A stretch of DNA of 30,429 nucleotides from the IMG/VR virus record IMGVR_UViG_3300028607_002748, positions 1-30,429 of that record; one strand, written 5' to 3'. Within the stretch, counting starts at the first letter, position 1; every line of letters begins with the position of its first letter. Position numbers and translations under genes: made by a program. This DNA comes from a virus. A model generated the notes under the pieces. It was not told the DNA's origin. It searched no databases and saw nothing but the letters and a program-made list of their open reading frames with translations. Shown here in pieces: positions 134 through 23,013 of the stretch.

Positions 134-480
134 CGCTGCAAAGCGACCTGATCGTCTTCGCCGTAGCGCTCGTTATCGACGAGGGACATCTGCTTGGCCA
201 CCAGGTCGTTAATTTTGCCCACGGAGATGACGGGAACCGTTGAAATGCCCTGCTCCATCGCGGCACGCCAGCGGTGTTCGCCACCGAGGATCTCAAAAAT
301 GCCCCCGTCCAGCTCCCGCGCCAGAATTGGCTTAAAAAAGCCCAATTTTTCGATAGAGCCTTTCAGTTTTTCGAAGTTTTGCGCTCCAACGGAGTTGGTA
401 TTCCAGGGATTCGGACGCAGGTTCGCGACTTCCACCTGCAGAATCGTAATTTTCACATCCATAATTCTGATACAATCCAT
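16..480 (-). CDS. ParB/Srx-fold N-terminal domain protein, C-terminus replaced
   Basis: The first ~115 residues carry the ParB N-terminal (ParB/RepB/Spo0J) fold signature: LRPNPWN near the start, then a GGEHRWRAA box at about residues 66-74 (the ParB box II region) and a DNERYGEDD segment. Such proteins act in plasmid partition, as CTP-dependent DNA clamps, or as small phage regulators and nucleases. Full-length relatives continue into a helix-turn-helix part. Here the frame runs instead into the 133-bp repeat, giving a hydrophobic then basic tail (ICYLFIVSVFAF...) that looks non-native. The gene diverges from the helicase gene. Start is uncertain: ATG at 480 or at 462, neither with a strong Shine-Dalgarno. 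Probably a truncated, non-functional or altered allele. Confidence 0.7.
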   Translation of the reverse strand: MDCIRIMDVKITILQVEVANLRPNPWNTNSVGAQNFEKLKGSIEKLGFFKPILARELDGGIFEILGGEHRWRAAMEQGISTVPVISVGKINDLVAKQMSLVDNERYGEDDQVALQRLICYLFIVSVFAFDVTNYRYTEIKIKSFLRGNEKIFLQ

Positions 481-10979: not shown

Positions 10980-11297
10980 TTACCAGTCCCATGCAGGCAG
11001 CCAATCCACCAGCTCGGCGTCGCAATCGAATTGCACCGCGTCAAAGCCGGCATCCAGTATGGCCTGTATGTTGGAGATCGCCTCTTTCGAAATGCCGTAT
11101 TCACTTAGCTCTTCTTTCCAGTCACTGCCACGCATTCCAGCACGAACAATCCAGCCGTACTGTGTACCGTGTACCCAATTCAACCCGCGATCGGTAAGTG
11201 GGTCGAAGCAGGCAATGGGTAGCCGCTCTGAATCCGCTGCCGTTACGTGGGCGGTGCTGATCACTGCCGTTTTGTAGACTTCCGTGAACTTCAACAT
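10980..11297 (-). CDS. DUF5983-family protein, first paralogue
   Basis: 105 residues. Begins LKFTEVYKTAVISTAHVTAADSERLP and has FDPLTDRGLNWVHGTQYGWIVRAG, the pattern I associate with the DUF5983 family found on enterobacterial plasmids and phages; function unknown. It shares about half of its residues with the protein encoded at 14420-14740. The gene opens an operon with the GIY-YIG nuclease and is controlled by a double operator-A promoter. GGAG lies six bases before the ATG. Confidence 0.8.
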   Translation of the reverse strand: MLKFTEVYKTAVISTAHVTAADSERLPIACFDPLTDRGLNWVHGTQYGWIVRAGMRGSDWKEELSEYGISKEAISNIQAILDAGFDAVQFDCDAELVDWLPAWDW

Positions 11298-11381: not shown

Positions 11382-11648
11382 TTAGGTCAATTTAAAGTCA
11401 TCTATGTCGTCCACGAACTCCATATGTCTGGCTTCAACACTAGACAGTCTGATCAGATATGCAAGCCCGTAACTAAGTGAAGTGGGTTGTTCCAGCACAA
11501 ACTCGAACCCGTTCTCATGCGTTTTACCAAGCCAGAATCCACCGCCGTATTCTTTTTTACGTTGGAAGAAAACGAACTGTCCAGGTATTAAGTACTTGAG
11601 CACTTCTCCCCTGTAGACGATCACATATTTGGAATTTTCTCTGCCCAT
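11382..11648 (-). CDS. SOS-controlled small protein of unknown function
   Basis: 88 residues from ATG 11648 (a GTG three codons earlier is possible). Beta-rich: SKYVIVYRGEVLKYLIPGQFVFFQRKK, then FWLGKTHENGFEFVLEQ, ending in an acidic DDIDDFKLT. It looks like a small SH3- or PH-like barrel but no family is recognised. The promoter carries a near-perfect LexA box 14 bases before the ATG, so it should be silent until DNA damage. On temperate phages LexA-run small genes are often anti-repressors (Tum of 186, for example) or inhibitors of cell division; either is speculative here. Confidence 0.8.
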   Translation of the reverse strand: MGRENSKYVIVYRGEVLKYLIPGQFVFFQRKKEYGGGFWLGKTHENGFEFVLEQPTSLSYGLAYLIRLSSVEARHMEFVDDIDDFKLT

Positions 11649-11662
11649 TTCACACACCCCAA

Positions 11663-11682
11663 TACTGTATGTATAAACAGTA
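11663..11682 (-). promoter_or_regulatory. LexA (SOS) box
   Basis: TACTGTATGTATAAACAGTA matches the E. coli consensus CTG-N10-CAG with TA flanks on both sides. It overlaps a candidate -10 (TATACA) that is preceded at 16 bp by TTGCAT. The box lies immediately upstream of the gene at 11648. Confidence 0.9.
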
Positions 11683-11737
11683 GTATTTTAGATGCAATGA
11701 ATCAACTTTGATGGTTAATTAAATAACTAGGTGGTGA

Positions 11738-11750
11738 AAACAATTTGTTT
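11738..11750 (+). promoter_or_regulatory. Operator-A site of the rightward 11836 gene
   Basis: Perfect AAACAA-T-TTGTTT. Read rightward, TTGTTT within it can serve as a -35, with GTAATT 17 bp on as -10. Here the operator lies at -35 only. Confidence 0.75.
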
Positions 11751-14419: not shown

Positions 14420-14740
14420 CTACCATTCCCAGATTTTTAACCCGTCAATCGTATCTGCGTCTCGGTCGAAATGCACCACCTCAAAGCCGGCACTCAGGAC
14501 TTTCTCGATGTTCTCGATAGTCGACCAGCTAATGCCTTCCTCGCGCAAAGACTCCTTCCATGACTCGGCACGAAGACCGGCACGGATAATCCAGCCATAC
14601 TCAGTACCGTGAATCCAGTTATAGCCACGGTCAGTGATTGGGTCAAAGCTGATTTGAGGCAGTATCTCGGAGTCCGCTTGAGTAACGTGGGCGGTGCTGA
14701 TAACGGCGACTTTGTATGATTCAGTAATATTCAGGCTCAT
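14420..14740 (-). CDS. DUF5983-family protein, second paralogue
   Basis: 106 residues, SLNITESYKVAVISTAHVTQADSEILP ... FDPITDRGYNWIHGTEYGWIIRAGLRAESWKESLREEGIS. It aligns end to end without gaps worth noting with the protein at 10980-11297, including the shared Trp-rich C-terminus (KIWEW / PAWDW). The promoter belongs to the operator-A family with a perfect distal site and a decayed proximal one. Function unknown; the duplication with different downstream partners suggests a modular pair. Confidence 0.8.
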   Translation of the reverse strand: MSLNITESYKVAVISTAHVTQADSEILPQISFDPITDRGYNWIHGTEYGWIIRAGLRAESWKESLREEGISWSTIENIEKVLSAGFEVVHFDRDADTIDGLKIWEW

Positions 14741-18450: not shown

Positions 18451-19266
18451 TTAATGAAGACGTTTGGATTCCTTCATTTCACGTTCGACATGCTCACGAC
18501 ACGGCTCATACTCAATGGCGCTGGCGGTAATTTTCCCGGCAGCAATTAGCTTCACGGCAGCAAAGCAAAGTCCTTTAAAGGTGAACTTGGCCTGGTTGCG
18601 TCCGTTTCCGATGACAACGTTTTTGCCATATCCGCGGTCAATGAAGATCTTGAGGAACTGGCGGTTAACAGTGATGTATTTGCGCTTAACGTACACATCA
18701 CCCAGCGAGTCCATCAGCGCACCCAGAACAGCCCCGGACGTTCCGAGAATGCGACCAGCTTCATTCAGCCCATAAAGCTCATCAGCAGTGCCGCAAATGG
18801 TGTCCATGAGAATGGCTTTTGGTTTTGCGTTAGATAATGCAACGCCTAACGCCTCGTTCTCTTTCTCCAGACGCTCGTTTTCCTCGACCTGGTGTAACAA
18901 ATGAACCAGAGCTTCTTTATAGGTACGTGGAATAGCAGGCGTTCCGCGGTCGGCAAACATGGACTCAAGCTCTCTCCACCGATCAACAAGGCGTGCGGTA
19001 AATTCAGGAGAAAGCTGCGCCACGACAACGATGCTGTCGCGTTTACCCTGTTCGGCTTCGAACAAGTAAAACGTAGCCGGACGCCCGGCAGTGGGCTTTT
19101 CCACCATTGGTGGAAAAGTAATAACGCCGGATTTAGCGAGTCTTTCAATGGTGCGTTTTACGCTGTCATGGCGACTGCCGACCATTTCGGCGATCTCCTG
19201 ACTGGTCATCGATGGTTTGGCGTGTAAGCCTGTAGTGGTGGGAGTGTGTGCGGTTGCCTCAAACAT
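18451..19266 (-). CDS. Rha-family phage regulatory protein / antirepressor
   Basis: 271 residues. The N-terminal ~110 residues match the Rha (pRha) domain: MTSQEIAEMVGSRHDSVKRTIERLAKSGVI, then VVAQLSPEFTARLVDRWRELE. A coiled coil follows (HQVEENERLEKENEALGVAL, about 123-142), then a C-terminal part like the antirepressor KilAC/ANT type (YGLNEAGRILGTS...YVKRKYITVNRQFLKIFIDRGYG). Such proteins relieve or modulate phage repression. GGAGA lies before the ATG. The gene sits behind an operator-A palindrome and a terminator-like leader hairpin, so its own expression appears to be both repressed and attenuated. Confidence 0.85.
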   Translation of the reverse strand: MFEATAHTPTTTGLHAKPSMTSQEIAEMVGSRHDSVKRTIERLAKSGVITFPPMVEKPTAGRPATFYLFEAEQGKRDSIVVVAQLSPEFTARLVDRWRELESMFADRGTPAIPRTYKEALVHLLHQVEENERLEKENEALGVALSNAKPKAILMDTICGTADELYGLNEAGRILGTSGAVLGALMDSLGDVYVKRKYITVNRQFLKIFIDRGYGKNVVIGNGRNQAKFTFKGLCFAAVKLIAAGKITASAIEYEPCREHVEREMKESKRLH

Positions 19267-19335: not shown

Positions 19336-19348
19336 AAACAATTTGTTT
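19336..19348 (-). promoter_or_regulatory. Operator-A site upstream of the antirepressor gene
   Basis: Perfect AAACAA-T-TTGTTT, the last copy of the family in the window. TTGTTT inside it can be a -35 with AGTTAA about 18 bp downstream as -10. Confidence 0.75.
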
Positions 19349-20544: not shown

Positions 20545-23013
20545 CTATGATTTAGGTAAGTACTGTTTTAATTTATCAATAAATTGCTCAATCTCTGCAG
20601 AAGTGAGTTCTGTTAGCTCACGTTTGCATATTCCTACTGCATCATCAAATCTTGAAGTTAAAGTTAACCAAATTGCTTTATATCTTATGAAACTTCCGTA
20701 TGTTTGAGATTTAGGTGAATCAGTTTTTTCAAGAATCCCAATGGCATACTCTAACTTATCAATTCTTCTATATTGTATTGCTAGATCACAGAGCGTTAAA
20801 ACAGGGTATTTGATATCAGGAAAATCCATGATCCCATTTTCAATCAAGGTAAATGCGTCATCAACTTTATTCTCAAACCTAGCAAGTGCTTTAGCTTTGG
20901 CAGAGCAATAAATTTCTTGTGCACGTTGAGCTTGATTCGATTTTAGTCGTTCAAGGATATCCTCAACTAAACCTGGTTCAATATGTGAATCATCTTTGTA
21001 AAAAAGACAGTTTAGATAGTTGTTAGCATTTATTGGATTATTTTTCTGTCTTTCATAAACCTCCTTTGCCAATCCTAAAGCAAGGTCGTGTTCATCATTC
21101 TGTAAATACAATAATACTAATTCACTTTTAGAACGATAGTCATTAGGTCTTTGCCTTAAAACTCGCTTATAGCTGTCAATTGCCCGAGGGCGTTGGCGTG
21201 TTATTCTAAAATAAAAACCATGCAGAAATGAACTTTCTGGTTCAGGAACATCTCGTACCGCATTAAAAAACTCACGGTCATGCAGTCTTGCCAAAGACTG
21301 ACATTTCATAAATAATATGTGCTCTATAACATTTGAATGCATATATTGAGCATTTGAAAGGATCTGATCAGATAATCTCACAGCTTCTTTATAGCTCGCG
21401 GATCCACCTTTTTCGTATAATGATCTTATTGTTTTTACAAAATATGAGGGAACTAATACCCGACTATCTATATCTTTACCAGTTTTGATGGCTTCCTGAA
21501 TGGAAAAAATATAGTCAGATATATCTCTATTGTCATCTGTATATTCTTCAATGAATTTTTTAATATGTTTGCTTAATATGGCATCATATTCACTGGTGGT
21601 TCCAAACTTACTCCTTGATATATAATCCTGTATTACTTGATTTACTCTGATATAATCATTGTTCACACCTAACTGATCACATACAGACATGTTAATAAAG
21701 CTTTGTGTAATTGAATAAAACTCCACTTCATCTACCAATGAAAAAAGGAACTCATAGCTAATGAATTCAAATTTTGAAAGGAAATATAAAAATTCCAACT
21801 TTCGTTGGTCATGGGAAAAACTTTCAACTATTACCTTTGCCTTATCATCAGCATATTCTCTTATTAAATGTGAATCTTTTTTTACTGAGTAAAGGTTTGT
21901 GTCCGATATACTATCCACGGCAAAAAGAACTTGCTCTGGATAACCCGAAAGAAGATCTGAGAAAAAACGCAGATCTTCAGGAGATAAATCTAAGCCTTTA
22001 TATGTTGCATACCTTTTCAAAAGCCCTCGTCTTTCTTGAATATTCAACTCGGGAATTTCTTCAAAGTAATACTCTGGATTTCTATAAGAAAATGTTTTAT
22101 TAGCTCTAAACTTAGATGCTATACAGAAAGTCAAATGACCATAGTGTTTAATATGATCTGTAATCCTTACAAACCAACTTACAACTGTACTATCAGGTTG
22201 AACTATGGCTCCTTTATCTTCAATTAGGATTCGTTCTTTTTCTTCTATAATTCCTTCTATAAGCTTTACCGCAATATTAACTTTTTCGCTTATTGAAGTA
22301 GTCATTAAATCATGGATTTTACCAATATCGCACAAGCCAAGATCGTCGATTTTTAAGATAAAGTCTTCTATGCTATCTGAAGATTCGATTTGTATTATAG
22401 GGAATTCATAAGACTCTCTTATAGCGTTGGATTTTATAAGAGCATTCTTCATAAAGGATTTGCGGCCAATTGAATCTAAACCTGAAGCAATAAAAATTAC
22501 TGGGGGGGATTTGTCAAAATCGTCAAAACGTTGTTCGACATTAGTTGTTTTCTCATTTCTACCCACAAATATTTTTTGTCTTTCTTTCAATGCAGGATGT
22601 GTTTTAAATGCAATCTCTCGTAGTCGAGCATTGATTTTCCTAATAGCAACGTTAGGCTTTCGAATTGGCTGAATATTAAAACCCTCTTTCATCCACGATG
22701 GGATCCTTGGATCTGCAAAAGTTATTTTATTATCTATTATAATTGGATAAATACGTTGTAGATGGCCGTCCTCAACTTTTTTCTTTGCCAAGCGTACTTC
22801 CTCTTTAACCCAATCAGATTCTAATGCAGAATCAGAAAGAAATAAAACAAAAAGAGATGTATCGTCTAACCCATTTAATATTTCCTCTGATGGAGACATG
22901 CCTTTTTCAAAAGTCTGCTCATCGAAAATGAGAGTTTCTTTGCGAAGCCCTGAAGCAACAACTCGTACATAGTCCTTGTCTTTTGAACTATGTGAAAGAA
23001 AACATTTTATCAT
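20545..23013 (-). CDS. TIR - STAND-like NTPase - TPR protein, candidate anti-phage effector
   Basis: 822 residues. Residues 1-~135 are a TIR domain: CFLSHSSKDK strand and turn, LFVLFLSDSAL, then ESDWVKEEV with Glu72 four residues after Trp68, the place of the catalytic Glu in NAD-cleaving TIRs such as SARM1. Next IFVGRNE (148-154) is the entry typical of STAND-type NTPases, and a P-loop-like GLDSIGRKS (178-186) departs from GxxxxGK[ST]. The middle holds a helical NTPase core with LTFCIASKF. From ~500 the protein is helical repeats, TPR-like near 600-720 (AIDSYKRVLRQRPNDYRSKSELVLLYLQND). The expected mode is sensing by the repeats and NAD depletion by TIR. The gene is visibly AT-richer than its neighbours and has its own promoter and terminator, as horizontally gained cargo. 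Confidence 0.85.
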   Translation of the reverse strand: MIKCFLSHSSKDKDYVRVVASGLRKETLIFDEQTFEKGMSPSEEILNGLDDTSLFVLFLSDSALESDWVKEEVRLAKKKVEDGHLQRIYPIIIDNKITFADPRIPSWMKEGFNIQPIRKPNVAIRKINARLREIAFKTHPALKERQKIFVGRNEKTTNVEQRFDDFDKSPPVIFIASGLDSIGRKSFMKNALIKSNAIRESYEFPIIQIESSDSIEDFILKIDDLGLCDIGKIHDLMTTSISEKVNIAVKLIEGIIEEKERILIEDKGAIVQPDSTVVSWFVRITDHIKHYGHLTFCIASKFRANKTFSYRNPEYYFEEIPELNIQERRGLLKRYATYKGLDLSPEDLRFFSDLLSGYPEQVLFAVDSISDTNLYSVKKDSHLIREYADDKAKVIVESFSHDQRKLEFLYFLSKFEFISYEFLFSLVDEVEFYSITQSFINMSVCDQLGVNNDYIRVNQVIQDYISRSKFGTTSEYDAILSKHIKKFIEEYTDDNRDISDYIFSIQEAIKTGKDIDSRVLVPSYFVKTIRSLYEKGGSASYKEAVRLSDQILSNAQYMHSNVIEHILFMKCQSLARLHDREFFNAVRDVPEPESSFLHGFYFRITRQRPRAIDSYKRVLRQRPNDYRSKSELVLLYLQNDEHDLALGLAKEVYERQKNNPINANNYLNCLFYKDDSHIEPGLVEDILERLKSNQAQRAQEIYCSAKAKALARFENKVDDAFTLIENGIMDFPDIKYPVLTLCDLAIQYRRIDKLEYAIGILEKTDSPKSQTYGSFIRYKAIWLTLTSRFDDAVGICKRELTELTSAEIEQFIDKLKQYLPKS

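Follow-up and report, generated by a model that had tools for sequence, protein, structure and literature searches.

The locus examined here raises the question of what a small gene set behind a LexA box does for the element that carries it, and in particular whether it is the switch for induction of that element. The window, by which we mean the whole stretch of DNA analyzed, is a viral contig of 30,429 bases with its genes in the order found in SSU5-like phage-plasmids; this gene order marks it as a fragment of such an element, most of the full-length records examined being about 100 to 115 kb long. In clinical Enterobacterales, SSU5-like phage-plasmids are a common finding, and resistance genes may be among their cargo (PMC9600943); how DNA-damaging drugs wake them has not been worked out in the literature that we found.

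The LexA box and the gene behind it

The gene runs on the minus strand from an ATG at position 11648 to a stop at 11382. The features of the locus are as follows:

11382..11648, minus strand: 88-aa protein of the family phrog_2100 (function unknown), from the open reading frame and a profile match; predicted small alpha/beta core followed by an acidic, low-confidence C-terminal tail ending in DDIDDFKLT
11657..11660, minus strand: GGGG, Shine-Dalgarno-like, 8 bases 5' of the ATG, read from the sequence
11663..11682, no strand assigned: LexA box TACTGTATGTATAAACAGTA, from sequence match and matrix score; kept in 73 of 76 distinct homologues
11677..11705, minus strand: predicted sigma-70 promoter, with -35 TTGATT (11705-11700), a 17-base spacer, and -10 TACTGT (11682-11677) within the LexA box
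11738..11750, no strand assigned: putative operator AAACAANTTGTTT, about 55 bases upstream of the LexA box (a fixed spacing), adjoining the divergent ydfZ

A preliminary description of this DNA had claimed a near-consensus LexA box that overlaps a promoter and lies 14 bases ahead of an 88-residue gene, and this was borne out: the box differs from the consensus TACTGTATATATATACAGTA at two positions, the predicted -10 element falls inside it, and the gap to the ATG is exactly 14 bases. TACTGTATGTATAAACAGTA is the sole match to TACTGTATATATATACAGTA in the window at three mismatches or fewer, and none of 100 shuffles yields one. A matrix that we compiled from 21 known E. coli LexA boxes gives it 27.9 bits, on par with the top known boxes; the runner-up site in the window reaches 11.2 bits, and shuffling yields 0.045 sites per window at or above 15 bits. 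The AAA.TTGA of the -35 region is invariant in nine aligned relatives. The further claim that this is the only gene with such control holds for the window, which has no other strong box, but not for the full-length relatives, where a recombinase encoded elsewhere is also under predicted LexA control.

The encoded protein matches phrog_2100 (PHROGs v4), a sequence cluster without function, over its full length (residues 1 to 84 of 85; E = 6e-37). Compared with close relatives, the coding sequence has a dN/dS of 0.07 to 0.13 and is therefore under purifying selection, and identical or related copies were found in 447 plasmid records, 36 phage records, and 367 matching stretches in viral contigs. 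Pfam and NCBIfam gave no match for 11 members of the family, be it to S24, to DinI (PF06183), or to any other domain, and PDB sequence searches returned chance-level matches alone. AlphaFold2 predicts a fold of four short strands and then two helices, with a mean pLDDT of 81 and values below 50 at residues 1 to 4 and 86 to 88; fold searches against PDB and BFVD retrieved nothing at an E value of 0.001 and no VIA-align Z score of 5 or more. A PADLOC match to PDC-M42A (E = 0.006), present in only 2 of 51 members, was taken as noise. The literature searched describes neither a function for the family nor its control by LexA.

Predicted SOS control across the phrog_2100 family

From 130 extracted loci, we obtained 76 distinct homologues of phrog_2100, carried by SSU5-like phage-plasmids and by P22-like, lambda-like, and P2/186-like phages (in the P22-like phages, the gene sits between eaA and xis/int). 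A strong LexA box is present at 73 of the 76, down to about 36% protein identity; only L030 and L050, both shortened, and L026, for which 57 bases of upstream sequence were available, have none. The box takes one of two positions. At 42 of the homologues it lies directly 5' of the start codon, typically by 8 to 23 bases (solo layout), and at 31, in P2/186-like prophages, it lies 200 to 590 bases upstream, ahead of an operon (operon layout). The best protein tree (71 rows) implies five changes between these layouts and its well-supported branches force at least three, the protein being short and many forks of the tree open; LexA control has been retained through these changes.

Predicted SOS control is thus the most constant feature of the family. 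The near-consensus box at the promoter and its retention in nearly all distinct homologues strongly support, on sequence grounds, the assignment of the 88-aa gene to the LexA (SOS) regulon; by established SOS biology, induction by DNA damage would follow. As a phage gene under SOS control it is nothing out of the ordinary; the interest of phrog_2100 is that it is widespread, uncharacterized, and consistently predicted to be SOS controlled.

Antirepressor, switch, or accessory gene

The same description had proposed that the gene encodes an antirepressor or induction switch. The 88-aa protein would then bind and inactivate the lysogeny repressor of the phage-plasmid after DNA damage, like Tum of 186 and GfoA/GftA of Gifsy-1/2, which are likewise small phage proteins that LexA controls directly; LexA control together with small size does match the GfoA/GftA pattern (PMC3121763). 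SSU5-like phage-plasmids are, moreover, induced by DNA damage: Cyrano was induced 39-fold by ciprofloxacin (PMC9928086), and mitomycin C induced most of the SSU5-like elements on which it was tried (PMC9600943). A search of three phage-plasmids with phrog_2100 turned up no S24-type cleavable repressor. SSU5 itself is an exception among its relatives in that it lacks the recombinase; its sole strong LexA box is that of the 88-aa gene and no S24 repressor turned up in it, with which an induction role in that element would be compatible as well.

Against this, the operon loci already contain a separate gene of the Tum type. A small Tum-N-like gene stands between the LexA box and phrog_2100 at all 31 of them, so that in P2-like phages phrog_2100 lies downstream of the Tum-like gene and not in its place; DinI is additionally present, neighboring phrog_2100, at 20 of the 31, and neither gene occurs at any of the 42 solo loci. 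The Tum-N-like proteins themselves show sequence similarity to 186 Tum, with E about 1e-5 in two of the types. At the level of sequence, the 88-aa gene is separate from the antirepressor. Phrog_2100 itself gave no match to Tum or GftA even at an E limit of 10 and no detectable similarity to irsA or DinI. An irsA- or GfoA-type identity, suspected from the position after DinI, was dropped, as there was no sequence similarity to irsA or GftA.

The company that the gene keeps points the same way. SI8 and S135 have family proteins that differ at one residue, whereas their repressors share only 34% identity across 61 aa. S24-type cleavable repressors were found in 4 of 11 carriers of phrog_2100 and not found in the other 7, so that the gene occurs whatever the mode of induction of its phage. 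Some phage-plasmids also do without the gene: Cyrano, G006, G007, and G009 have no phrog_2100 match. A search of Cyrano with the family profile came back empty, and a 33% tblastn match inside its stomatin-like gene was discarded as chance. In G001, a frameshifted remnant persists (L191:261-464 and 313-456, minus strand) with its LexA box retained, so the gene is dispensable there. Cyrano thus lacks the gene and is nonetheless induced by ciprofloxacin, with the caveat that its strain also carries the prophage Cartapus, which has a 48% identical phrog_2100 homologue under LexA control; possibly this homologue acts in trans on Cyrano induction. Because a Tum-like gene precedes phrog_2100 in every operon locus, near-identical copies sit beside unrelated repressors, and some phage-plasmids dispense with the gene, the 88-aa protein is probably not an antirepressor, and we consider the proposal unlikely; the distribution of AAACAANTTGTTT (below) and a better switch locus elsewhere also weigh against it.

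That locus is the one of the tyrosine recombinase of SSU5-like phage-plasmids (L138:4306-5412, minus strand; LexA box at 21437-21456 of NZ_AP018351). A LexA box lies 24 to 29 bases 5' of the recombinase ATG in 39 of 40 close homologues, and the gene runs tail-to-tail, overlapping by a few bases, into a gene for a putative 129-aa helix-turn-helix (HTH) repressor. It is also present, with its LexA box, in phage-plasmids where phrog_2100 is absent or broken, and as a predicted LexA target it is better conserved than the 88-aa gene. This suggests that the recombinase-repressor locus is the likelier induction switch, a candidate that could act by transcriptional interference or by recombination. 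The two conserved LexA-controlled genes are concrete targets in SSU5-like phage-plasmids.

Other roles can be drawn from the neighbors in the operon. In P2/186-like phages, phrog_2100 directly follows tum/dinI, the slot taken in 186 by orf97 (L134:8105-8836), which is annotated "expression from plasmid blocks 186 infection"; by this analogy, the 88-aa protein would be an SOS-induced host takeover or exclusion protein that blocks superinfection or host functions. The analogy is one of position, however: orf97 codes for 243 aa and matches phrog_2100 at chance level only, and the defense-model matches of the family are weak and scattered, so we regard such a role as quite improbable. Perhaps SOS accessory genes can be exchanged at this slot. 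SOS control and the DinI neighbor could likewise suggest a modulator of the DinI or PsiB kind that tunes RecA or LexA cleavage. Phage DinI and UmuD-like (HumD-type) genes are, like phrog_2100, LexA-controlled accessory genes, but phrog_2100 has no DinI similarity, no S24 (UmuD-like) domain, and no other Pfam or NCBIfam match, and since it coexists with DinI it is not DinI's replacement in those operons; this role seems to us very improbable.

The reading that we favor, with slightly better than even confidence, is that the 88-aa gene is a moron-like accessory gene of the SOS response, tightly repressed by LexA, in the temperate phages and phage-plasmids of enterobacteria, and that its product would act on host replication or repair through its tail. 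When DNA is damaged, RecA-driven cleavage of LexA frees the promoters that LexA covers. Intact LexA would thus cover the -10 element and keep the 88-aa gene silent, and cleavage would free the promoter and allow the protein to be made whatever the state of the phage's own repressor; the protein would then presumably act on the host replication or DNA repair machinery during induction. A role in replication or repair at the SOS stage would agree with what is seen in two phage-plasmids without phrog_2100, Cyrano and G006: each has a LexA-controlled UmuD-like gene in its stead (L136:39311-39700 and L190:453-842, minus strand, respectively), the G006 gene being so named from a reading of its sequence alongside that of the Cyrano gene.

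How the tail might contribute is suggested by its composition. In 71 of 72 full-length members, an acidic stretch near the C-terminus is followed by a polar residue and then [FLYM]-[STKRNE]-L; tail length varies, and 27 of the 72 end in LF (for instance, NLSLF or DFTLF). The tail bears a resemblance to the bacterial clamp motif, as well as to the UmuD clamp-binding peptide and the SSB tail. We hypothesize from this pattern that it is a short linear docking motif, its last residues extending from a folded alpha/beta core and docking on the beta clamp or on an SSB-binding protein. The glutamine of the clamp motif is not conserved in phrog_2100 tails, and the tail in the window, DFKLT, has no terminal Phe; the bacterial motif, QL(S/D)LF at the C-terminus, is itself said to be more variable than its consensus implies (PMC9690074). 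Since the tail and the N-terminus of the model are of low confidence and no fold was matched, this mechanism is without structural support. A bolder version would make phrog_2100 a new class of SOS-induced proteins that dock through a C-terminal peptide on the host replication clamp or on a partner that binds SSB tails, redirect replication or repair during induction, and are traded between unrelated phages together with their LexA promoter; we think it rather unlikely that all of this applies.

Putative operators and other genes of the window

Perfect AAACAANTTGTTT palindromes occur at 12 sites in the window between 5769 and 19348, mostly intergenic, and at 8 to 13 copies per full-length phage-plasmid, with or without phrog_2100. 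They appear to form the regulon of a putative repressor. Of eight other phages with phrog_2100, seven lack the motif, and the copy at 11738-11750 of the window is probably context and not part of the control of the 88-aa gene. SI8 has a single copy, upstream of its LexA box at the spacing seen in phage-plasmids, suggesting that its phrog_2100 cassette was acquired from a phage-plasmid.

A more conventional antirepressor candidate, without LexA control, is a Rha/Ant-type homologue encoded at 18451-19266 on the minus strand (phrog_63; E = 5e-44), with AAACAANTTGTTT upstream at 19336-19348. Two DUF5983 paralogues (10980-11297 and 14420-14740, minus strand) also each have AAACAANTTGTTT upstream. 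Farther along, at 20545-23013 on the minus strand, the window codes for an 822-aa TIR-domain protein with a full-length PADLOC match to TIR-NLR (E = 8e-166), probably an antiphage defense gene.
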